The translations under genes and the position numbers were made by a program. Source: Thalassorhabdomicrobium marinisediminis (GTDB taxonomy: Bacteria; Pseudomonadota; Alphaproteobacteria; Rhodobacterales; Rhodobacteraceae). Taken from it: a stretch of DNA of 64,000 bases. This document shows positions 5,061 to 39,990 of this stretch, piece by piece. How positions within the stretch are numbered: position 1 is the stretch's first letter; each line of letters begins with the position of its first letter. Below the pieces are notes generated by a model. It had not been told where the DNA came from, did not search any database, and saw nothing but the letters and a program-made list of their open reading frames with translations. The stretch spans positions 62,001 to 126,000 of the forward strand of contig NZ_QCYG01000003.1 of assembly GCF_003072065.1 (NCBI RefSeq). The letters run 5' to 3'.

Positions 5061-6193
5061 TGGACGCCATGCCAAAATGGGCCGATGTGGTCCTTGTTCC
5101 GGTGGTCTCGTTGCTGCTGGCGGCAATCATCTCGATCATCGTATTCGTCGCCGTGGGCCAGGACCCGTGGGAGGCGCTCAAGCTGATGTCCTACGGCGCG
5201 GTCGGCACCTCGGACAATCTTGGCTACACCCTGTTTTACATGACAAATTTCATCTTCACCGGTCTGGCGGTGGCGGTGGCCTTCCACGCAGCGCTGTTCA
5301 ACATCGGCGGTGAGGGTCAGGTGCTGCTGGGCGGGCTGGGGGCCACGCTGGCGGTGCTTTTCGTGCCCTGGCCGCACTGGACGCTGGCGCTGTTGGCGGG
5401 GTCCGTGGCAGCGGCGCTGTTTGGCGCGCTCTGGGTCGCGATCCCCGCCTATTTGCAGGCGCGGCGCGGCAGCCACATCGTGATCACCACGATCATGTTC
5501 AACTTCATGGCCTCGGGCCTGTTGATCTTTATGCTGGCCGGGCCGCTCAAACCGGTGGGCGAGATGCAGATCGCCACGGCGGTCTTCCCTGAAACGGTGC
5601 ACCTGCCGTCGCTGCACGACATCGCACAATTGTTCGGGCTGGATACCTTCGGCCGCTCGCCGGTGAATATCTCGATCTTTCTGGCGCTGGGTGCCTGTGT
5701 CGGCGTCTGGGCGCTGATCTGGCACACGCGGCTGGGCTATCAGATCCGCGCCTTTGGCCAGTCCGAATCCGCCGCGCGCTATGCAGGCATCTCGGCGGTG
5801 AACATCACGATGATCGCCTTGCTGATCTCGGGCGCTTTGGCCGGGATGATGGCGGTCAACAACACGATGGGCATCAACAACCCGCAACTGGTGGACAACG
5901 CCGCCGGCGGCGCGGGCTTCATCGGCATCGCGGTGGCCCTGATGGGGCGCAACCACCCCGTGGGCATCGTCATCGCGGCACTGCTGTTCGGCGCGCTGTT
6001 TCAAGGCGGGGCCGAGCTTTCGGCGGCCACGCAGATTCCGGTGCAGATCGTCGTCGTGATCCAGGCCCTCGTGATCATGTTCACCGGCGCGCTGGACGAG
6101 ATGGTGCGGTCCCCCATTCAGAAGATGTTCTTGCGCTACGGCAACAAGGGCGTCGGTGCACCTGCGGCCGTGTTGCCGGAAGGTGAGGAGTAA
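5060..6193 (+). CDS. Nucleoside ABC transporter permease 1
   Basis: The 377-residue polytopic membrane protein belongs to the branched-chain/ribose-type permease superfamily (BPD_transp_2). The GGEGQVLLGGLGA segment (about 84-96) and the late run of glycine-rich helices are typical of the larger BMP-system permease. Its ATG overlaps the ATPase stop. The partner permease starts 4 nt after this gene. Together they should form the transmembrane channel for purine nucleosides. Confidence 0.92.
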   Translation: MDAMPKWADVVLVPVVSLLLAAIISIIVFVAVGQDPWEALKLMSYGAVGTSDNLGYTLFYMTNFIFTGLAVAVAFHAALFNIGGEGQVLLGGLGATLAVLFVPWPHWTLALLAGSVAAALFGALWVAIPAYLQARRGSHIVITTIMFNFMASGLLIFMLAGPLKPVGEMQIATAVFPETVHLPSLHDIAQLFGLDTFGRSPVNISIFLALGACVGVWALIWHTRLGYQIRAFGQSESAARYAGISAVNITMIALLISGALAGMMAVNNTMGINNPQLVDNAAGGAGFIGIAVALMGRNHPVGIVIAALLFGALFQGGAELSAATQIPVQIVVVIQALVIMFTGALDEMVRSPIQKMFLRYGNKGVGAPAAVLPEGEE

Positions 6194-19715: not shown

Positions 19716-20495
19716 TCAGACCGCGCGTTCGACCATCATCTTCTTGATATGGGCGATCGCCGAAGCCGGGTTCAGCCCCTTGGGGCAGGTCTTGGCGCAG
19801 TTCATGATCGTGTGGCAACGGTAAAGCTTGAAGGGGTCCTCAAGGTCGTCCAGACGCTCGCCTGTGGCCTCATCCCGGCTGTCGATGATCCAGCGATAGG
19901 CGTGCAGCAGGGCGGCGGGCCCGAGGTAGCGGTCGCCGTTCCACCAGTAGCTGGGGCACGATGTGGAGCAGCAGGCGCACATGACGCATTCATAAAGCCC
20001 GTCGAGCTTCTTGCGGTCGCTGATCGACTGTTTCCACTCTTTCGCGGGGCGGTTTGTCTTGGTCTCCAGCCACGGCATGACGCTGGCGTGCTGGGCGTAG
20101 AAGTGTGTGAGGTCGGGAATCAGGTCCTTGACCACGGGCATATGCGGGAGGGGGTAGATCTTGATGTCGCCGCTGATCTCTTCCAGCCCGTAGATACAGG
20201 CTAGCGTGTTGATCCCGTCGATGTTCATCGCGCAAGAGCCGCAGATCCCTTCGCGGCAAGAGCGGCGGAAGGTCAGCGTCGGGTCGATCTCGGACTTGAT
20301 CTTGATCAGCGCGTCCAGAACCATCGGCCCGCAGGTGTCCATGTCGACGAAATAGGTGTCGAGGCTGGGATTTTTGCCGTCGTCGGGGTTCCAGCGATAG
20401 ATCTGCACCTTGCGCAGATTGGTCGCACCTTCCGGCTTGGGCCAGGTCTTGCCCGTCGTCATGCGGGAGTTCTTGGGCAGGGTCAGTTGAACCAT
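19716..20495 (-). CDS. sdhB: Succinate dehydrogenase iron-sulfur subunit
   Basis: The 259-residue SdhB carries three Fe-S clusters that pass electrons from FAD to quinone. The [2Fe-2S] ligands lie in [15 protein letters not shown] with a later C (NTLAC). The [4Fe-4S] and [3Fe-4S] ligands lie in [16 protein letters not shown] and [14 protein letters not shown]. It is last in the sdh operon and separated from sdhA by two small lipoprotein genes. It peripherally binds the cytoplasmic membrane face through SdhC and SdhD. Confidence 0.98.
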
Positions 20496-20838: not shown

Positions 20839-21126
20839 CTAGCGCAGGCGCGGCGGCCGGATCGGGGCCGCGCCGGTGCGGTCAAACACGCAGGATTCGT
20901 ACACCTCGACCGGATCGCGCCCGCGGATGAAATCCGACGACAGCCCCACCGCAAGACCCGCGGACGGCCCGCTGTTGCTGTTGACCCCCATGGTAACAGA
21001 TCCGGTGGGGCCCTGTGCAGCGCGGGCGCGGTCTTCGCAAAGATCCGCCGCCTGCTCGGGCGTCACCGGTGCGGGCGTGCAGGCCGCAAGGGCCACGAGC
21101 AGCGCGGACAGGGACACAAGACGCAT
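20839..21126 (-). CDS. Second small lipoprotein inside the sdh operon
   Basis: The 95-residue product has a lipoprotein signal with lipobox LAAC (cysteine near residue 16), two later cysteines (ADLCED and ESCVFD) and a basic, proline-rich C-terminus. The ATG overlaps the sdhA stop (TGATG form), so translation is coupled to sdhA. A glycine-rich GSVTMGVNSNSGPSAGLAVG stretch could be a turn of a small outer-membrane anchored domain. The function is unknown. Confidence 0.75.
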   Translation of the reverse strand: MRLVSLSALLVALAACTPAPVTPEQAADLCEDRARAAQGPTGSVTMGVNSNSGPSAGLAVGLSSDFIRGRDPVEVYESCVFDRTGAAPIRPPRLR

Positions 21127-22928
21127 CAGAACGTCCTTTCTTTCGGGGCGATCTTTTGCAGGCTGATCCCGCCTTCGGCCTCGGTCGAGAGGGGGTCGGT
21201 GATCACCGGACGGTGGCTGAGCTCCACGCGGTTGCCGTCGATCCGGCTGATCGTGTGCACGCGCCAGTTTTCGTCATCGCGGGTAGCGTAATCCTCATGC
21301 GCGTGGGCGCCACGGCTTTCCTTGCGCGCTTCAGCGCCGACGATGGTGGCCAGCGCATTGGGCATCAGGTTGGTCAGCTCGAGCGTCTCCATCAGGTCGG
21401 AGTTCCACACAAGGCTGCGGTCCGTGACCTTCAGATCGCCCAGCTTGCCGGCGATGGCGGTCATCTTCTCGACGCCCTCTTTGAGGGTCTTGTCCGTGCG
21501 GAACACAGCGGCATCTTCCTGCATTGCCTTTTGCATCTCGAGCCGCAGTTCAGCCGTGGGCGTGCCGCCGTTGGCGTGGCGCAGGGTGTCGAACCGGTCG
21601 AAGGCCTTGTCCACCTCGGCGGTGTTGGTGGCGGGCACCGAAGCCTCGCGGTCCACCACCTCACCTGCGCGGATCGCGGCGGCGCGGCCAAACACCACAA
21701 GGTCAATGAGCGAGTTTGAACCGAGGCGGTTGGCCCCGTGGACGGACGCACAGCCCGCCTCACCCACGGCCATCAGACCGGGGACGACGGCGTTGGGATC
21801 GCCTTCGGTCGGGTTCAGCACCTCGCCGAAGTAGTTCGTGGGGATGCCGCCCATGTTGTAGTGCACCGTGGGCAGCACGGGGATCGGCTCTTTCGTGACG
21901 TCGACGCCCGCGAAGATGCGCGCGGATTCGGAGATGCCGGGCAACCGTTCGGCCAGCGCCTCAGCGGGCAGGTGGTTGAGGTTGAGGTGGATGTGGTCGC
22001 CATTCGCGCCCACGCCGCGGCCTTCGCGGATTTCCATCGTCATGCAGCGCGAGACATAGTCGCGCGGGGCGAGGTCCTTATACTGCGGCGCGTAGCGCTC
22101 CATGAAACGCTCACCTTCGGAGTTGGTGAGATAGCCGCCTTCGCCGCGCGCGCCTTCGGTGATCAGGCAGCCTGAGCCATAAATGCCCGTGGGGTGGAAT
22201 TGTACGAACTCCATGTCCTGCAATGGCAGGCCCGCGCGGGCGACCATACCGCCGCCGTCGCCGGTGCAGGTGTGGGCCGAGGTGGCGGAGAAATAGGCGC
22301 GGCCATAGCCGCCGGTGGCCAGCACGACCATCTTGGCGTTGAAGACATGCATCGTGCCATCGTCGAGCTTCCAGCACACGACGCCGGTGCAGACCCCGTC
22401 GGTCATGATCAGGTCGATGGCGAAATATTCGATGTAGAATTCGGCCTGTTGCTTGAGCGATTGACCGTAAAGCGTGTGCAGGATCGCGTGGCCGGTGCGG
22501 TCGGCGGCGGCGCAGGTGCGCTGCACCGCGGGGCCTTCGCCGAACTCGGTCGTGTGGCCACCGAAGGGCCGCTGGTAGATCTTGCCTTCCTCGGTGCGCG
22601 AGAAGGGCACGCCGTAGTGTTCCAGCTCATAAACCGCCTTTGGGGCTTCGCGGGCCAGGTATTCCATCGCGTCGGTGTCGCCCAGCCAGTCGGAGCCTTT
22701 GACGGTGTCATACATGTGCCACTGCCAGTGGTCCGGCCCCATGTTCGACAGGGACGCGGCGATGCCGCCCTGCGCGGCCACGGTGTGCGAACGCGTGGGG
22801 AACACTTTCGAGATGCAGGCCGTGCGCAGGCCCTGCTCGGCCATGCCAAGCGTGGCGCGCAGACCCGCACCACCGGCGCCCACAACAACCACATCGTATT
22901 CGTGGGTTTCGTATTCGTATTCAGCCAT
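21126..22928 (-). CDS. sdhA: Succinate dehydrogenase flavoprotein subunit
   Basis: The 600-residue SdhA oxidises succinate to fumarate. It has the FAD-binding [13 protein letters not shown] near residues 13-25, the covalent flavin histidine H48 in [10 protein letters not shown], and the conserved [23 protein letters not shown] substrate-domain block. Length and order are normal. It overlaps the downstream lipoprotein gene by one base and follows sdhD by 15 nt. Confidence 0.98.
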
Positions 22929-22943
22929 GTCTGGACCTTTGAA

Positions 22944-23315
22944 TTAGAGTGCAATCCGCACGATTGCGAAAACGGCGATGGCCGCAGCGGTATAGCTGAG
23001 CAGGATCGAGCCGATGATCAGCGCCCGGCGCGCGAAGCCGTGGACGTAATCCTCGATCAGCACCTGCACGCCGCCCTTGAAGTGGATGAAGCCCACCAGC
23101 AGCGTCAGGATCGCCACGATCGCGGGGAACGGCCGCGCGTAATACAGGCTTGCCTCGGCATAGGTCATGCCCAGCGCCTGCCCGAAGGTGAAGACGAACA
23201 GCGGCACAAGCCCGACGAGCGCCACGGAAGACACCATCATGTGCCAGTGATGTTCGGTCCCGGATTTTGCGGAACCAAGGCCGGCGGCGCGTTTGCGGTC
23301 AGTCAGAAATCGCAT
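22944..23315 (-). CDS. sdhD: Succinate dehydrogenase membrane anchor subunit
   Basis: The 123-residue hydrophobic protein has three predicted membrane helices. The HHWHMMVSSVALVGLVPLFVF region holds the histidines expected near heme b, and the DYVHGFARR segment after helix 2 is typical of alphaproteobacterial SdhD. It lies 12 nt after sdhC and 15 nt before sdhA. It anchors the complex and helps form the quinone site. Confidence 0.95.
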   Translation of the reverse strand: MRFLTDRKRAAGLGSAKSGTEHHWHMMVSSVALVGLVPLFVFTFGQALGMTYAEASLYYARPFPAIVAILTLLVGFIHFKGGVQVLIEDYVHGFARRALIIGSILLSYTAAAIAVFAIVRIAL

Positions 23316-23327
23316 GATGTCAGCCCC

Positions 23328-23711
23328 TTACAGCACGATTGCGGTGAAAATGGTCAGCAGGATCGAGATCAGGATGATCGCCATGCCCGCCAGTTCGGAG
23401 CGTTCCACGTCAAGCATGCGGCCGCTGTCCCAGATCAGGTGCCGGATCCCGGCGAGGGAGTGATACCACAGGCAGGCGACCGAGCCGAACATCACCAGAT
23501 CGCCGAACCAGCTGGTCATGAAGCCATTCGCCCGCTCATAGGCTTCGGGGCCCGACGCCAGCGCGGCGAACCACCACACGACCAGCAACGCCCCCACGAT
23601 CAGGGCATTGCCCGTCAGGCGGGTGAAGATCGACGTCATCGACGTCAGTTGCGGGCGATAGATCGTAAGGTGCGGAGACAGCGGGCGATTGCCCCGATTG
23701 ACGTCGGCCAT
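23328..23711 (-). CDS. sdhC: Succinate dehydrogenase cytochrome b556 subunit
   Basis: The 127-residue protein starts MADVNRGNRPLSPHLTIYRPQ, the SdhC signature, and has three membrane helices with the heme-ligand histidine in the YHSLAGIRHLIWD block. I place the start at 23711 because GAGGGAG lies just upstream; a longer frame would add about 27 unrelated residues. It is the first gene of the operon. A pair of GTGATCAC palindromes lies about 140-170 nt upstream. Confidence 0.96.
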   Translation of the reverse strand: MADVNRGNRPLSPHLTIYRPQLTSMTSIFTRLTGNALIVGALLVVWWFAALASGPEAYERANGFMTSWFGDLVMFGSVACLWYHSLAGIRHLIWDSGRMLDVERSELAGMAIILISILLTIFTAIVL

Positions 23712-23849
23712 GATGGCTCCCTCTTGCTGCGGTCTTGGACCGGTGCGGCGTGAAACTTGCACCTGTTCTAACGTATTACACAGGAGTGTCACGGTGTGCG
23801 AGCGTATGCAGCGGCGAAATCTTGTCGCAGATTGCAGGTTTTTTCCAAA

Positions 23850-23882
23850 TTGTGATCACTAGCTGACGGTGTGTGATCACAA
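23850..23882. promoter_or_regulatory. Paired GTGATCAC palindromes upstream of sdhC
   Basis: GTGATCAC cores lie at 23852-23859 and 23873-23880, with 21 nt between centres (two helical turns). The outer site extends to TGTGATCACA. The same arrangement occurs before sucC and a single copy before the GntR gene at 39323-39973. The motif appears nowhere else in the window in this form. This is probably an operator pair for that GntR protein. Confidence 0.7.
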
Positions 23883-23938: not shown

Positions 23939-24970
23939 CTAGGTAGGCATCAGCGCCCAGTAATCCAGATCGAGCAACACGTGCGGCAAGTATTTCCCGT
24001 CGTCGCCTTTCAGCGCCCCGACCTCTCCGCCCGTGGTGGCCACCAGCCGCAAACGGATCGCGCCGACGCCCGGCGCGTCCAGCGGAGCGGTGTCCAGCAC
24101 CTCGGACCACGCCCGCACCGTATCGCCTGCGAAACAGGGGTTCGCATGGGCGCCTCCGTTGATGGCGACCAGCATCTGCGCATTGGCCAGCCCGTTGAAG
24201 GTCAGCGCGCGGGCCAGCGAGATCACGTGCCCGCCGTAGATCAGCCGTTTGCCATCCTCTCGTGCGGTGGCGTCGAAATGCACTTTGGCGGTGTTCTGCC
24301 ACAGGCGGGTGGCGAGCATGTGCTCGGCCTCTTCCACGGTGACGCCGTCCACGTGATCGACTACCTCGCCCACGGTATAGTCGCGCAGCCGGTGCGGCTC
24401 TCCGGCAAGGGTGAAATCATAGTCGGTAAAATCAAGGCCCTTCGGCACCACCAGATCGCTGGCCGCAACAGAGTCCTTCAACTCGGGGATCACCGTCTCG
24501 GGCGCGGGCGCGTCCGGATCGCCTCTGCGGACCATGACCCAGCGGACGAATTGCAGCACCTCTTGCCCGTGCTGGTTGGTGCCCGTGGTGCGCACATAGA
24601 CCACGCCGGATTTGCCGTTCGAGTTCTGCTTGAGGCCGATGACCTCGGACGTCGACCGCAACGTGTCCCCCGGCCAGACAGGGGCGAGCCAGCGACAGTC
24701 CGCATAACCCAGATTGGCGATGGCGTTGAGCGAGATGTCGGGCACGGATTTGCCGAAGACGATATGAAAGACGATCAGATCGTCCAGCGGGCTGGCGGAC
24801 AGGCCGCAGCCCTGCGCGAAAGCATCGGACGAATAAAGCGCGTGCCGCGCGGGGTAGAGCATGTGGTTGAGCGCCCGCTCTCCACCGGACACCGTGCGCG
24901 GCACGGCGTGGTCGATCATCTCCCCCAGACGGTAATCCTCGAAAAAGCGGCCTGTGTTGGTCTTGCTCAC
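23939..24970 (-). CDS. mch: Mesaconyl-CoA hydratase (double hot-dog MaoC-like)
   Basis: The 343-residue enzyme hydrates mesaconyl-CoA to beta-methylmalyl-CoA in the ethylmalonyl-CoA pathway. Its length and the sequence (FFEDYRLGEMIDHAVPRTVSGGE, LGYADCRWLAPVWPGDTL, YGGHVISLARAL) fit Rhodobacter mesaconyl-CoA hydratase with two MaoC-type hot-dog domains. It is the last gene of the mcl2-nnrU-DUF1737-mch operon and overlaps the DUF1737 gene by 4 nt. The 227-nt region after it holds the sdh control sites. Confidence 0.93.
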   Translation of the reverse strand: MSKTNTGRFFEDYRLGEMIDHAVPRTVSGGERALNHMLYPARHALYSSDAFAQGCGLSASPLDDLIVFHIVFGKSVPDISLNAIANLGYADCRWLAPVWPGDTLRSTSEVIGLKQNSNGKSGVVYVRTTGTNQHGQEVLQFVRWVMVRRGDPDAPAPETVIPELKDSVAASDLVVPKGLDFTDYDFTLAGEPHRLRDYTVGEVVDHVDGVTVEEAEHMLATRLWQNTAKVHFDATAREDGKRLIYGGHVISLARALTFNGLANAQMLVAINGGAHANPCFAGDTVRAWSEVLDTAPLDAPGVGAIRLRLVATTGGEVGALKGDDGKYLPHVLLDLDYWALMPT

Positions 24971-29173: not shown

Positions 29174-29207
29174 ATGTGATCACACGCCTGATGGGTGTGA
29201 TCACAAA
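29174..29207. promoter_or_regulatory. Paired GTGATCAC palindromes upstream of sucC
   Basis: GTGATCAC cores lie at 29176-29183 and 29197-29204, again exactly 21 nt apart, both inside TGTGATCACA decamers. They precede the AT-rich stretch (about 29210-29270) that probably holds the promoter, so the bound protein may act as an activator. The sucC start is 102 nt downstream of the second core. The rest of the mdh-sucC gap holds no gene. Confidence 0.72.
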
Positions 29208-29305: not shown

Positions 29306-30499
29306 ATGAACATCCACGAATATCAGGCCAAGGCGCTTCTGGCGTCCTATGGTGCCCCGGTCAGCGACGGCCGTGCCGTGCTGCGCGCGGAAGAAGCCAA
29401 GACCGCCGCGGGCGAGCTGGACGGGCCGCTTTGGGTCGTCAAGGCGCAGATCCACGCCGGTGGGCGCGGCAAGGGCAAGTTCAAGGAAGCCGACGCCGGT
29501 GACGCGGGCGGTGTGCGCCTGACCAAATCGGTCGAGGAAGCCGCCGAGGAAGCAAAAAAAATGCTGGGCCGCACGCTGGTCACGCACCAGACCGGCCCCG
29601 CCGGCAAGCAGGTCAACCGCGTCTATATCGAGGATGGCTCGGGCATCGAGACCGAGATGTATCTGGCGCTGCTGGTGGATCGCCAGACCAGCCGCATCGG
29701 CTTCGTCGTCTCGACCGAGGGCGGCATGGACATCGAGGAAGTGGCCGAGAGCACGCCTGAGAAAATCCTCAACTTCACCGTCGATCCTGCCACCGGCTAC
29801 CAGCCCTTCCACGGCCGTCGCGTGGCCTTCGCGCTGGGGCTCGAAGGGGCGCAGGTCAAGCAGTGCGTCAAGCTGATGGGGCAACTCTACACAGCCTTCA
29901 CCGAGAAGGACATGGAGATGCTCGAGATCAACCCGCTGATCGTCACCGACAAGGGCGACCTCAAGGTGCTGGACGCGAAGGTGAGCTTTGACGGCAACGC
30001 GGTTTACCGCCATTCCGACGTCGCCGCCCTGCGTGACGAGACCGAGGAAGACCCCAAGGAACTCGCCGCCTCGAAATACGACCTCAACTACATCGCGCTG
30101 GACGGTGAGATCGGCTGCATGGTCAACGGCGCGGGTCTTGCCATGGCGACGATGGACATCATCAAGCTTTACGGCGCAGAGCCTGCCAACTTCCTCGACG
30201 TAGGCGGCGGTGCGACCAAGGAAAAGGTCACCGAAGCCTTCAAGATCATCACCAGCGACGACAACGTCAAAGGCATTCTGGTCAACATCTTCGGCGGCAT
30301 CATGCGCTGCGACGTGATCGCCGAGGGCGTGGTCTCGGCGGTCAAGGAAGTCGGCCTGCAGGTGCCGCTGGTCGTGCGTCTGGAAGGCACGAACGTCGAA
30401 GAGGGCAAGAAGATCATCAACGAAAGCGGTCTGGATGTGATCGCGGCCGATGACCTCAAGGACGGCGCGCAGAAGATCGTGAAAGCGGTCAAAGGGTGA
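29306..30499 (+). CDS. sucC: Succinyl-CoA ligase (ADP/GDP-forming) beta subunit
   Basis: The 397-residue subunit has an N-terminal ATP-grasp domain ([34 protein letters not shown]) and a C-terminal CoA-ligase domain ([33 protein letters not shown]). It works with SucD to make succinate, CoA and ATP. The ATG at 29306 gives the family start; upstream in-frame sequence belongs to the promoter region. It leads the suc-odh operon and is followed after one base by a 58-codon ORF. Confidence 0.98.
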
Positions 30500-30677: not shown

Positions 30678-31559
30678 ATGGCCATTCTCGTAAACGAAAA
30701 CACCAAAGTCATCTGTCAGGGCCTGACCGGGTCGCAGGGCACCTTCCATACTGAGCAGGCGATGGCCTATGGCACCAAGATGGTCGGCGGCGTGACCCCC
30801 GGCAAGGGCGGTCAGACGCACCTTGACCTGCCGGTCTACAACTCGGTCCACGAAGCGATGCACCAGACCGAGGCGAATGCGTCGGTCATCTACGTGCCGC
30901 CCCCCTTTGCCGCGGATTCCATCCTTGAGGCAATTGATGCGGAAATGCCGCTGATCATCTGCATCACCGAAGGCATTCCGGTGCTCGACATGATGCGCGT
31001 GAAGCGCGCGCTGGAAGGTTCTGCCTCGCGTCTGATCGGACCGAACTGCCCCGGCGTCATCACGCCCGACGCCTGCAAGATCGGCATCATGCCCGGCCAC
31101 ATCCACAAGCGCGGTTCGGTCGGCGTTGTGTCCCGTTCCGGCACGCTGACCTATGAGGCGGTCAAGCAGACCTCGGACAGCGGCCTTGGGCAATCCACCG
31201 CCGTGGGCATCGGCGGCGATCCGATCAAGGGGACCGAGCACATCGACGTGCTGGATATGTTCCTTGACGATGATGAGACGCAATCCATCATCATGATCGG
31301 CGAGATCGGCGGCACCGCCGAAGAGGAAGCAGCAGAATTCCTTGCCGAGCAGAAGAAAAAGGGCCGCTGGAAGCCGGTTGCGGGTTTCATCGCGGGCCGC
31401 ACCGCCCCTCCGGGCCGCCGCATGGGCCACGCGGGCGCCATCGTCGCAGGTGGCAAGGGCGACGCGGAAAGCAAGATCGAGGCGATGAAATCCGCCGGGA
31501 TCGTGGTCGCCGACAGCCCCGCCACGCTGGGCGAGGCCGTGTTGAAGGCGATCGGCTGA
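30678..31559 (+). CDS. sucD: Succinyl-CoA ligase alpha subunit
   Basis: The 293-residue subunit has the CoA-binding Rossmann domain ([14 protein letters not shown]) and the phosphohistidine loop in [31 protein letters not shown] and [13 protein letters not shown] are also conserved. It catalyses the substrate-level phosphorylation step with SucC. Its ATG directly follows the stop of the 58-residue ORF. Confidence 0.98.
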
Positions 31560-31706: not shown

Positions 31707-34667
31707 ATGACTGACCAATCCCCCAACGACCAGTTCCACGCCTCGTCCTTTATGCAGGGACACAACGCGGAATACATCGAACAGCTTTATGCGCGCTATG
31801 CCGACAACCCGAACGCGGTTGACGAGAGCTGGCGCGCCTTCTTCAAGTCGCTGGGGGACGCACCGGACGACGCGAAGGCCGAGGCAGCGGGTCCGTCCTG
31901 GGCCCGCGCGGACTGGCCGCCGCAGCCGAACGACGACCTGACCGCGGCGCTGGATGGCCAGTGGGCGCAGGAACCGGACGCGGCCGGCAAGAAGATCAAG
32001 GAAAAGGCCCGCGAGGTCGGCGTTGAGGTCAGCGACCAGCAGGTGCGGCACGCGGTGCTCGATTCCGTGCGCGCGCTGATGATCATCCGCGCCTATCGCA
32101 TCCGCGGGCATCTGGTGGCCGACCTCGATCCGCTGGGCATGCGCGACCAGACCCCGCACCCCGAGCTTGACCCCCGCTCCTACGGTTTCACCGACGCCGA
32201 CATGGACCGGCCGATCTTCATCGACAATGTGCTGGGCCTTGAAGTGGCCACGATGAACGAGATCCTCGCCATCGTGCAAAGCACCTATTGCGGCACCTTC
32301 GCGCTGCAATACATGCACATTTCCGACCCCGAGCAATCGGCATGGCTGAAAGAGCGGATCGAGGGCTACGGCAAGGAAATCAGCTTCACCCGCGAGGGAC
32401 GCAAAGCCATCCTTGGCAGCTTGGTGCAGGCCGAAGGGTTCGAGAAGTTCCTGCACGTCAAATACATGGGCACCAAGCGCTTCGGGCTGGACGGGGGCGA
32501 AAGCCTGATCCCGGCGATGGAGCAGATCATCAAGCGCGGCGGGCAGCTCGGCCTTGAAGAGATCGTCATCGGGATGCCGCACCGGGGCCGTCTGAGCGTG
32601 CTGGCCAACGTGATGCAGAAACCCTATCGCGCGATCTTCAACGAATTCCAGGGCGGCAGCTTCAAGCCCGAGGACGTGGACGGCTCAGGCGATGTGAAAT
32701 ACCACCTTGGCGCTTCGTCCGACCGGGAATTCGACGGCAATTCGGTCCACCTGTCGCTGACCGCGAACCCCAGCCACCTTGAGGCTGTGAACCCCGTGGT
32801 GCTGGGCAAGGTCCGCGCCAAGCAGGACCAGATCAACGACACCGACCGCACCCGCGCCATGGGCGTTCTGCTGCACGGGGACGCGGCCTTTGCGGGTCAG
32901 GGCGTCGTGGCCGAGGGCTTCGGCCTGTCGGGGCTGCGCGGGCATCGCACCGGCGGCACCATGCACATCGTGGTCAACAACCAGATCGGCTTTACCACCG
33001 CGCCGCATTTCTCGCGCTCGTCCCCCTACCCCACTGACATTGCGCTGATGGTCGAAGCGCCGATCTTCCACGTGAACGGGGACGACCCCGAGGCTGTGGT
33101 CCACGCCGCGCGCGTGGCGACCGAGTTCCGCCAGAAGTTCCACAAGGACGTGGTGCTCGACATCATCTGCTATCGCCGCTTCGGTCACAACGAAGGCGAT
33201 GAGCCGATGTTCACCAACCCGGTGATGTACAAGAAGATCAAGCAGCAGAAGACCACGCTGACGCTTTATACCGAGCGGCTGGTGCGCGACGGGCTGATCC
33301 CCGAGGGCGAGATCGAGGACATGAAAGCCTCGTTCCAGCAACACCTCAACGAGGAATTCGAGGCCGGCACCGACTACAAGCCCAACAAGGCCGACTGGCT
33401 GGATGGCAAGTGGTCGCATCTGGACCGCCAGAAGGACAAGTACCAGCGCGGCAAGACGGCGATCTCGAAAGAGACCTTCGACGACGTCGGCCGCGCGTTG
33501 ACGACGGTGCCGGACGGCTTCCCCATGCACAAGACCGTGGGGCGCATCCTTGAGGCGAAGAAGAAGATGTTCGAGACCGGCGAAGGCTTTGACTGGGCCA
33601 CCGGTGAGGCGCTGGCCTTTGGCTCGCTGCTCACCGAAGGCTATCCGGTGCGCCTGTCGGGGCAGGATTCCACCCGCGGGACCTTCTCGCAGCGGCATTC
33701 CGGCATCGTGAACCAGGAAACCGAAGAGCGGTATTATTCGCTCAACCACATCCGCGAGGGTCAATCGCGGTATGAGGTGATCGATTCCATGCTGTCGGAA
33801 TATGCGGTGCTTGGCTTCGAATACGGCTATTCGCTGGCCGAACCCAACGCTCTGACCCTGTGGGAAGCGCAGTTCGGCGACTTTGCCAACGGCGCGCAAA
33901 TCATGTTCGACCAGTTCATCAGCAGCGGGGAGAGCAAGTGGCTGCGGATGTCCGGCCTCGTCTGTCTGCTGCCCCACGGCTACGAAGGCCAAGGGCCGGA
34001 GCACTCCAGCGCGCGGCTTGAGCGGTTCTTGCAGATGTGCGGGGGCGACAACTGGATCGTCGCCAACTGCACCACGCCGGCGAACTATTTCCACATCCTG
34101 CGTCGTCAGCTGCACCGCAGCTACCGCAAGCCGCTGATCCTGATGACCCCGAAGTCGCTGCTGCGCCACAAGCTGGCCGTCAGCAAGGCCGAAGAGTTCC
34201 AGTCCGGCAGCAGCTTCCACCGCGTGCTTTGGGACGATGCCCAGCACGGCAACTCAGACACCGAACTGGTGGCCGACGACAAGATCAAGCGCGTCGTTAT
34301 GTGTTCGGGCAAGGTCTATTACGACCTGCTGGAAGAGCGTGACGCCCGCGGCATCGACGACATCTATCTGATGCGGTTCGAGCAGTTCTACCCCTTCCCC
34401 GCGCAATCGGCGGTGAAAGAGCTTGAGCGGTTCAAGAACGCCGAAATGGTCTGGTGTCAGGAAGAGCCGAAGAACCAGGGCGGCTGGACCTTCATGGAGC
34501 CGAACATCGAATGGGTCCTGACCCGCATCAAGGCCCAGCACACGCGACCGGTCTATGTGGGGCGTCCGGCCTCGGCCTCGCCCGCGACCGGTCTGGCCAG
34601 CCAGCACAAAGCCCAGCAAGCCACGCTTGTTGACGAAGCACTTACCGTTGAAGGATCGAAATCATGA
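31707..34667 (+). CDS. sucA: 2-Oxoglutarate dehydrogenase E1 component
   Basis: The 986-residue thiamine-diphosphate enzyme decarboxylates 2-oxoglutarate and succinylates the E2 lipoyl arm. It has the N-terminal helix [19 protein letters not shown] that binds the partner core, the [15 protein letters not shown] motif, the ThDP-binding GDAAFAGQG...NNQIGFTT region, [11 protein letters not shown], and the C-terminal [10 protein letters not shown]. Full length for the family. Its stop overlaps the sucB start by 4 nt. Confidence 0.98.
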
Positions 34668-37325: not shown

Positions 37326-38714
37326 ATGGCAAGTTATGACGTCATCATCATCGGCTCCGGCCCCGGCGGCTATGTCTGCGCTATCCGCTGTGCGCAACTC
37401 GGCCTGAAAACCGCCTGCGTCGAAGGGCGCGACACGCTGGGCGGCACCTGCCTGAACGTGGGCTGCATCCCCTCCAAGGCGTTGCTGCACTCCAGCCACA
37501 TGCTGCACGAGGCCGAGCACAATTTCGCCGCCATGGGCCTCAAGGGGAAATCGCCTTCGGTCGATTGGAAACAGATGCTGTCCTACAAGGATGACGTGAT
37601 CGGCCAGAACACCAAGGGCATCGAATTTCTGTTCAAAAAGAACAAGGTGGACTGGCTGAAAGGCTGGGGCTCGATCCCCGAGGCGGGCAAGGTCAAGGTC
37701 GGGGATGAGGTGCACGAGGCCAAGCACATCATCATCGCCTCGGGCTCTGAAGTCTCCTCCCTTCCCGGCGTCGAGATCGACGAAAAGACCGTCGTGTCCT
37801 CCACCGGCGCGCTGGAGCTCAAGAAGGTCCCCAACGACATGGTCGTGATCGGTGCCGGTGTCATCGGGCTTGAGCTGGGCTCGGTCTACAGCCGTCTGGG
37901 CGCCAATGTGACGGTGATCGAATTCCTCGACGCTGTGACGCCGGGCATGGATGCGGAAATCCAGAAGACCTTCCAGCGGACGCTGAAGAAACAGGGGCTG
38001 AAGTTCGTCATGGGCGCCGCCGTGCAAGGGGTCGAGACCAAGGGCGGCAAGGCCACGGTGACTTACAAGCTGCGCAAGGACGACAGCGAGCACAGCGTCG
38101 ATGCGGATACGGTGCTGGTCGCCACGGGCCGCCGCCCCTACACCGACGGGCTGGGGCTGGATAAGCTGGGCGTCGAGATGTCCGACCGCGGCCAGATCAA
38201 GACCGACGCGCACTACAAGACGAGCATTGATGGTATCTACGCCATCGGCGACTGCATCGACGGCCCCATGCTGGCCCACAAGGCCGAGGATGAGGGCATG
38301 GCCTGCGCCGAAGGGCTGGCCGGCCAGAAGCCCCACGTGAACTACGATGTGATCCCCGGCGTGATCTACACCCACCCCGAGGTGGCCGCAGTGGGGGCCA
38401 CGGAGCAGCAGCTCAAGGACGCCGGACGTGACTACAAGGTCGGCAAATTCTCCTTCATGGGCAACGGGCGGGCGAAGGCCAATTTCGCGGGCGACGGCTT
38501 CGTGAAAATCCTTGCGGACAAGACGACCGATCGCATTCTGGGCGCCCATATCATCGGCCCCATGGCGGGCGATCTGATCCACGAGATCTGCGTCGCCATG
38601 GAGTTCGGCGCAGCGGCCGAGGATCTGGCCCGCACCTGCCACGCGCATCCGACCTATTCCGAGGCCGTGCGCGAAGCAGCACTGGCCTGTGGCGATGGCG
38701 CGATCCACGCCTGA
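37326..38714 (+). CDS. lpd: Dihydrolipoyl dehydrogenase (E3)
   Basis: The 462-residue flavoenzyme reoxidises dihydrolipoamide with NAD. The FAD motif [12 protein letters not shown] (about 8-19), the redox disulfide [16 protein letters not shown], the NAD motif [19 protein letters not shown] and the C-terminal His-Glu dyad in [10 protein letters not shown] are all present. It is the last gene of the suc-odh operon. It has no N-terminal lipoyl domain. AAAAAGGAAAA upstream supports the start. Confidence 0.98.
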
Positions 38715-38849: not shown

Positions 38850-39326
38850 ATGTCCCCAACCGATCCCGCGCCCCGTTCGCGCTTTTCCCTGCCCTCGCTG
38901 CCCTCCCTGTTCCGCGTATTTCGACGCACCCCCGGGCCGGAGCAGCTTGCGCTGCATGCCGTCGTGGCCATGTCGCAGGTGGTCATCGCCACGGGACGGA
39001 TGGACGACGCTGCCGTGCAGCAGATCGCGGCGATCCTGACGCGGTTGACCGGTCGCGAATATGGGCCGACGCAGGTGATGGAGATGTTGCAAAAGCTCAA
39101 CCCCACGGCCGAGGATCTGGCGCAGGTCGGGCAAGATCTGCCGGAACGGGATCGCGAGATCGTGCTGGAGGCGGCGCTGCAACTGGCCGTCGCCAAGGGC
39201 GAGATCCGCCCCCCGGAATATGAGGTCGTCTCGGATCTGGCGCTTCGGATGCAGGTCGGGGCGGAAGCCTTCCGCCGCGCGGTGCGCAACGTCTCGGCGC
39301 ATTTTCAGGCGATGCGGGCGGCCTAG
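38850..39326 (+). CDS. TerB-like cytoplasmic protein of unknown function
   Basis: The 158-residue protein has a basic, proline-rich start and then an all-helical region (about 35-155) with the acidic pattern of TerB-like folds (MSQVVIATGRMDDAAVQQIAAIL, LEAALQLAVAKGEIRPPE). TerB domains occur in stress and tellurite-resistance proteins, and the role here is unknown. A GTG start at 38838 is an alternative. Its stop overlaps the stop of the convergent GntR gene by 4 nt. Confidence 0.7.
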   Translation: MSPTDPAPRSRFSLPSLPSLFRVFRRTPGPEQLALHAVVAMSQVVIATGRMDDAAVQQIAAILTRLTGREYGPTQVMEMLQKLNPTAEDLAQVGQDLPERDREIVLEAALQLAVAKGEIRPPEYEVVSDLALRMQVGAEAFRRAVRNVSAHFQAMRAA

Positions 39327-39973
39327 ACCTTCAGCATCCGCAGGCCCTGGGTCGCGTCGGAGCGCACGGCGAGTTTAAGGCTCGCTTCGTCCCCCGCTTT
39401 CAACGCGGCCAGAATCAGCTTGTGATTGCGCGGCGGCTCGGTCCGGCGCAGGCGACCATAGAGTTTCGACATCGTCGGCCCCAGTTGCAGCCAGATCGTC
39501 TCGGCCATGGCGAGCATCGCGGGGGCCTGCGCGCGCAGATAAAGCGTGCGGTGAAATTCGAGGTTCAGCCGGATGTAGCCCGGCGCGTCCTGCCGCGCGA
39601 TCACCCCGCCGACGCGGGCGTTGATCTCTTCCAGCCGCTCGATCAGGGCCATGTGGGCGCGGGGCAAGGCGCGGGCGGCCAGTTCCGGCTCAAGCAAGGC
39701 ACGCAGGGCGGCGAGTTCCTCGATCCGCTCGTTGCTCAGCTCCGGCGTCGAGACCCGCCCGGACGAGGACAAGAACAGCGCGCCTTCGGCCACCAGCCGC
39801 CGCACGGCTTCCCGCGCGGGCGTCATGGAGACGTCGAAATCCTTGCCGATCCCGCGCAGGGTCAGTGCCACGCCGGGATGAATTTCCCCGTGCATGATGC
39901 GTTGGCGCAGGGTGCGATAGACACGGTCATGGGCCGCACCGGGACCGTCACTGGCTTTGGTCTGGATCAACAT
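39323..39973 (-). CDS. GntR-family regulator (FadR/FCD type), candidate TCA-cycle regulator
   Basis: The 216-residue protein has an N-terminal winged helix (about 15-75, LRGIGKDFDVSMTPAREAVRRL) and a C-terminal all-helical FCD ligand domain with metal-site-type histidines in LEFHRTLYL and RNHKLILAAL. Such proteins bind short GT-N-AC palindromes and respond to organic acids. A GTGATCAC palindrome lies only 10 nt upstream of its start, and paired copies lie before sdhC and sucC. I infer that it controls the TCA operons and itself. The start has no visible ribosome binding site, so a leaderless mRNA is possible. Confidence 0.92.
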   Translation of the reverse strand: MLIQTKASDGPGAAHDRVYRTLRQRIMHGEIHPGVALTLRGIGKDFDVSMTPAREAVRRLVAEGALFLSSSGRVSTPELSNERIEELAALRALLEPELAARALPRAHMALIERLEEINARVGGVIARQDAPGYIRLNLEFHRTLYLRAQAPAMLAMAETIWLQLGPTMSKLYGRLRRTEPPRNHKLILAALKAGDEASLKLAVRSDATQGLRMLKV

Positions 39974-39982
39974 GGGTTATTT

Positions 39983-39990
39983 GTGATCAC
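39983..39990. promoter_or_regulatory. Single GTGATCAC palindrome at the GntR gene start
   Basis: The core sits in TTTGTGATCACGAA. On the gene strand a TTGACC (40003-40008) lies about 12 nt upstream, so the palindrome would fall in the promoter spacer or -10 region. That position suits autorepression. Confidence 0.65.

Follow-up and report, generated by a model that had tools for sequence, protein, structure and literature searches.

The stretch of 64,000 nucleotides that was analysed here at its full length, hereafter the window (Thalassorhabdomicrobium marinisediminis, contig NZ_QCYG01000003.1), contains two paired operators, one upstream of the succinate dehydrogenase operon sdhCDAB and the other upstream of the succinyl-CoA synthetase gene sucC. 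This operator is real, strongly conserved and already described in principle. We think it very probable that the system, taken as a whole, is explained by AkgR, a regulator of the GntR family that would act on the pairs from an activator position with the help of curved DNA, and that would also limit its own production. In this explanation, AkgR (39323-39973) would control sdhCDAB and sucCD-sucAB-lpd via the two pairs, and in each of them two AkgR dimers would sit on two adjacent palindromes facing the same side of the helix (21 base pairs (bp), two turns).

We take AkgR to be RSP_0981 of Rhodobacter sphaeroides, whose regulon was reportedly the subject of a 2015 paper by Imam, Noguera and Donohue in mBio 6:e02461-14. 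The motif and the activator role assumed here for the window are borrowed from the literature on that species. Passages of PMC6365646 give GTGATCAC as a motif among AkgR binding sites and call AkgR a transcriptional activator. In passages of PMC4344238, the GntR regulator RSP_0981 is predicted to control succinyl-CoA synthetase (RSP_0967-6), succinate dehydrogenase (RSP_0974-6) and alpha-ketoglutarate dehydrogenase (RSP_0965-62). The initial annotation of the window had proposed an undescribed or little described operator of the tricarboxylic acid cycle. The assignment to this cycle stands, given the conservation at sdhC and sucC and the co-occurrence with a GntR gene, whereas the novelty does not, as motif and regulator are in print for R. 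sphaeroides under the name AkgR.

The link to that species was made through a genome (G094; assembly of 4.6 Mb in 7 contigs) whose PufX is 100% identical to R. sphaeroides PufX, and which is taken on this identity to be R. sphaeroides or R. sphaeroides-like. Its gene order, lpd, sucA, sucD, sucC, mdh, mcl1, mch, sdhC, sdhD, sdhA, sdhB, akgR, agrees with the numbering from RSP_0962 to RSP_0981. The GntR protein of the window shares 73-74% identity with the homologue encoded after sdhB in G094, and by these comparisons the window gene is the orthologue of RSP_0981, with the identity of G094 resting on PufX.

A sequence search of the window placed the GTGATCAC cores of the sdh pair at 23852-23859 and 23873-23880, 21 nucleotides (nt) apart, in the 227-nt intergenic gap between an mch-like open reading frame (ORF; 23939-24970, minus) and the sdhC start codon (23711, minus), just where the initial annotation had put them. 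The cores of the suc pair lie at 29176-29183 and 29197-29204, again 21 nt apart. The annotation had spoken of the exact pair recurring before sucC; this holds for the cores and their spacing, but the 13-nt spacers of the two pairs differ in sequence. Its count of five places for TGTGATCAC in the window, all intergenic, was reproduced: there are 8 strand hits at these places, compared with a mean of 0.47 and a largest value of 4 in 100 shuffles. The spaced pattern TGTGATCAC-N{5,25}-GTGATCACA matched twice, at 23851-23881 and 29175-29205, both times with N13, and never in 100 shuffles; therefore, the spaced pairs, which are the predicted AkgR operators of the sdh operon and of the suc genes (neither assigned a strand), exceed chance expectation. 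The bare GTGATCAC core, without the flanking T or A, is also present in the window at 5480, 21199 (within sdhA), 56245 and 61193.

Over the whole genome, TGTGATCAC gave 38 strand hits at 32 positions, 30 hits and 27 positions of these being outside the window. The reversed-pattern control gave 1 hit, but that control includes CTAG, a tetranucleotide that is scarce in many bacterial genomes. Around 25 strand hits would be expected by chance if the shuffle rate of the window held throughout. Since the count is near this expectation, lone sites are weak evidence and it is the pairs that hold the signal. A wider AkgR regulon built on the 27 further positions was dropped for the same reason, and because overlapping ORFs blur their placement. 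One of the genomic matches (G000:C35:112112, L287) is situated about 16 nt 5' of an ORF resembling a small heat-shock protein, which may be chance. In G094, TGTGATCAC is found at only 4 places (7 strand hits; control 0), and these are two 21-nt pairs, 5' of sucC and sdhC.

The pair is kept by almost all relatives. Within the order, 287 of 292 genomes contain the pattern GTGATCAC-N{3,33}-GTGATCAC, mostly twice each, while its reversed control occurs in 1 genome among the 292. Placement covered 70 pairs from 35 genomes, fetched out of 75 listed, the remaining counted pairs lying outside it. Among these listed matches, 65 of the 70 fetched pairs are upstream of sdhC or sucC, the exceptions being L004, L005, L022, L137 and L159. 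Conservation before sdhC orthologues had been set by the initial annotation as a test of its proposal, which the operator has thus survived. For alignment, the 65 placed pairs were joined by 5 more (the window and four relatives), which gave 34 sdhC and 36 sucC regions, with spacings of 18-24 admitted. Over these 70 regions the core spacing is 21 in 57, 20 in 12 and 19 in 1, and the distance from the end of the pair to the gene start is 107-172 nt for sdhC and 97-137 nt for sucC. The idea of a class-wide feature was rejected: matches are found in just 24 of 380 genomes of the class that lie outside the family (29 of 385 when 5 family members are included), mostly with irregular spacing.

The presence of the pair also follows that of the regulator, the co-occurrence with the GntR orthologue that had been put forward as a check. 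A GntR homologue was found in 289 of the 292 genomes at E<=1e-48 and in 287 at E<=1e-70. Among the 287 genomes whose AkgR orthologue is close (E<=1e-70), 286 have the exact pair, as does 1 of the other 5, which gives a Fisher p of 8e-8, uncorrected for kinship. In G231, the one genome with a close orthologue but no exact pair, degenerate pairs with the 21-nt spacing remain at both sdhC and sucC. On the other side, two genomes with a diverged homologue (G110 and G227; 47-49% identity), one whose sole homologue is 33% identical (G141) and one with no homologue at E<=1e-20 (G232) have no pair, and none was found in these four within 260 nt 5' of sdhC or sucC.

The position of the pair relative to the sdhC promoter points to activation. 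In 25 of the 34 sdhC regions, GTGAC lies 65-68 nt past the start of the proximal core. When 28 sdhC sequences are aligned on this string, positions +22, +23 and +25 often have T, A and T, respectively, and the best match to TATAAT at 14-19 nt past GTGAC averages 3.6 of 6 positions versus 2.6 in shuffles. This bias suggests that a -10 element follows at a spacing of 16 nt. In the window, the putative -35 element of sdhC would be GTGACA (23787-23792, minus), 67 nt away from where the proximal core starts and with GTGAC as its counterpart in relatives, and the putative -10 element would be TAGAAC (23765-23770, minus), a weak match placed by the 16-nt spacer and the GTGAC alignment. We infer a sigma-70-type promoter in which the proximal core would precede the -35 element by about 63 bp (six turns) and the predicted AkgR sites would be near -97 and -118 relative to the predicted start site, a location that fits an activator and not a repressor blocking the polymerase. 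An equally clear -35 string was not seen at sucC, where 24 of 36 regions have [GCA]TTT or a similar string between +51 and +58 and 12 lack it. A paper on R. sphaeroides start sites, consulted for the starts of sdhC and sucC, has AkgR in its reference list only.

The third site concerns akgR itself. A lone TGTGATCAC (39982-39990, no strand assigned) lies 9-17 nt 5' of the akgR start codon, and relatives are alike; the single site that the initial annotation saw at the start of a FadR-type GntR gene is thereby located. Of 80 named loci, the best-scoring ones and hence biased to near relatives, 72 have an exact GTGATCAC no farther than 150 nt 5' of akgR. The ten-base site begins 17-20 nt before the matched akgR start in 57 loci; in some loci the matched start is a few codons inside the gene. 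From this placement, self-control by repression is probable, and AkgR would restrict its own synthesis through the site at its start codon. One relative (G147) differs from the usual lone site in having two GTGATCAC cores 13 nt apart (G147:C1:3357949-3357969), about 60 nt 5' of akgR (3357274-3357888, minus).

Between the pair and the genes there is, in addition, a ladder of A/T-rich patches. They are found 3' of the pair at about +9, +19, +29, +39 and +49 in both the sdhC and the sucC sets, and, counted from the proximal core, the ladder keeps its phase across genera between +9 and +58 (e.g., L204, L189 and L288). After removal of near-duplicates (31 of 34 sdhC and 32 of 36 sucC regions retained), the coherent A/T amplitude is 6.68 at a period of 10.0 for sdhC and 8.53 at 9.5 for sucC, compared with highest values of 1.99 and 1.91 among 300 shuffles. 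The period-10 power per sequence has a mean of 4.73 at sdhC and 6.31 at sucC versus 1.27 in 11,273 control intergenic windows, and 82% of the sdhC and 94% of the sucC regions are above the control 90th percentile (2.9). Ten extra sucC regions from named genomes, with sucC verified downstream of all ten, gave a mean of 5.56, nine of them exceeding 2.9. The power in G094 is 6.50 at sucC and 4.38 at sdhC, and in three genus mates of the window it is 4.5-5.7 at sucC and 1.2-2.9 at sdhC. As the letters of the ladder are A or T with none fixed, it fits DNA shape better than a protein-binding site, with curvature as a prediction. In most relatives examined, the DNA from operator to promoter has A/T tracts every 10 bp or so, which would curve it and help AkgR to reach RNA polymerase.

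Several observations weigh against this explanation and should be set beside the evidence for it. GTGAC is elsewhere at 55-77 in 3 of the 34 sdhC regions and absent from 50-90 in 6. The window's own ladder is weak, with a power of 1.71 at sdhC and 0.79 at sucC for a control median of 0.89. The upstream control stretch has amplitudes of 1.75 and 2.72, slightly above its own shuffle maxima of 1.70 and 1.77, which shows that the shuffles give too low a null; even so, the amplitude downstream of the pair exceeds that of this control by a factor of three to four. In G094 there is no site before akgR, even when four mismatches are allowed, and autoregulation is therefore not universal. Finally, G023 has pairs at sdhC and sucC (L289, L290) with no AkgR homologue at E<=1e-20, which would mean either that the gene was lost or that the assembly has a gap.

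Other explanations of the pair were also considered. TGTGA and TCACA are familiar as CRP half-sites, which would make each site an operator of the CRP/FNR type. Half-sites of that type are separated by about 6 nt, whereas here they abut with no such spacer, in both pairs and in relatives, and the presence of the pair tracks a GntR gene; contradicted by its anatomy, this assignment is scarcely credible. A different possibility is that AkgR is the right protein and the pair a repressor operator through which it represses sdh and suc. Many GntR-family proteins are known as repressors, and the placement of the lone akgR site, at the start codon, is that of a repressor. Yet AkgR is termed an activator in the passages of PMC6365646, and the stretch of about 63 bp between pair and putative -35 element, near-constant in the 25 sdhC loci, would leave the polymerase unblocked, which makes repression of these operons very unlikely.

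The pair could be bound, instead, by another GntR paralogue, and one is present in the genome (G000:C3:50226, 37% identical). In favour of this, a Pseudomonas regulator of the GntR family with 32% identity to AkgR is proposed in passages of PMC6365646 to bind GTGATCAC, and the pairs of G023 are there without a detectable close orthologue. However, the close orthologue is the single homologue at E<=1e-20 in 8 of 17 pair-bearing genomes searched, the next homologue in G094 is 30% identical, and the site at the start of akgR recurs in 72 of 80 loci. We consider binding by a paralogue highly improbable, and AkgR is retained as the predicted regulator.

The AkgR switch of R. sphaeroides is, then, near-universal in the sampled family, and its promoter layout can now be described in DNA terms. 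A stronger form of the proposal is a fixed DNA device, with a 21-bp pair, about five turns of phased A/T, a -35 element at near-constant distance, an activator centred at about -107 that could touch the polymerase because these parts together curve the promoter, and self-shutoff of akgR from the lone site; we regard it as a tentative idea that is rather doubtful in its entirety. If the phased A/T tracts matter, GntR activation from around 100 bp by way of DNA curvature becomes directly testable in R. sphaeroides laboratory strains. Neither the A/T ladder and the lone akgR site nor the rigid 21-bp pair and its near-constant distance to the sdhC promoter were found in the searchable literature, although the 2015 AkgR paper may contain some of this. 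Among the listed papers that contain TGTGATCAC, none appeared relevant. Phased A-tracts at Rhodobacter promoters gave no literature match, and the matches for GntR activator operators with an A-tract, judged by title and abstract, were not on AkgR.

On the minus strand of the window are sdhC (23328-23711, TIGR02970), sdhD (22944-23315, TIGR02968), sdhA (21126-22928, TIGR01816) and sdhB (19716-20495, by family search). On the plus strand, sucC (29306-30499) starts with MNIHEYQ inside a longer ORF from 29207, and is followed by sucD (30678-31559) and sucA, for the 2-oxoglutarate dehydrogenase E1 (31707-34667), both by family search, by an ORF assigned to sucB by position only, and by lpd, for dihydrolipoyl dehydrogenase (37326-38714), identified by sequence and position only, with a homologue in G094. 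Neither sucA nor lpd, which follow sucC on its strand, has an operator pair of its own in the window, so AkgR control of them would need read-through or a weaker site. The akgR orthologue is on the minus strand, and family search of its product (PF00392, E 2.3e-12; PF07729, E 2.5e-19) makes it a GntR protein with an FCD domain, of the FadR type. Standard FCD metal ligands are an Asp and three His; across 25 orthologues N137, H141, H184 and D206 of the window protein do not vary, and the effector pocket may therefore differ from the standard one. The gene has a TerB-like neighbour (PF05099, 38838-39326) on one side and a YgjP-like metallopeptidase gene (PF01863, 40005-40691) on the other; the latter kind of gene adjoins akgR in G094 as well.

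Compared with known systems, the window is closest to the AkgR regulon of R. sphaeroides, with which it shares the motif, the orthologous GntR gene and the target operons, and G094 has the same pairs at its sucC and sdhC promoters. The differences concern akgR, which is located beyond lpd in the window and beyond sdhB in G094, and which has the lone site at its start codon only in the former. McbR of E. coli is a distant homologue whose role is unlike that of AkgR; it provides the closest solved structure by sequence (PDB 4p9f, E 4.9e-19), with a GntR-type winged helix and an FCD-like domain. Outside the order, an AkgR-like GntR gene of 33% identity begins about 170 nt beyond a 21-nt pair in G437 (L092), one of 36% identity is about 150 nt from the pair in G402 (L115), and one of 32% is about 2.6 kb away in G305 (L091, L268). 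In G666, a 40%-identical GntR gene is distant from its pair. Homology search of six matching class genomes detected an AkgR-like gene at E<=1e-12 in four and none at this threshold in two (G331 and G663). In passages of PMC6365646, PS417_07240, the GntR regulator of the deoxyribonate cluster of Pseudomonas simiae, is proposed to bind GTGATCAC 5' of its own cluster, as in the AkgR motif; those passages report one site, for another pathway, and describe no pair. Together with the pairs near AkgR-like genes in G437, G402 and G305, this case suggests a broader set of AkgR-like regulators that use GTGATCAC.
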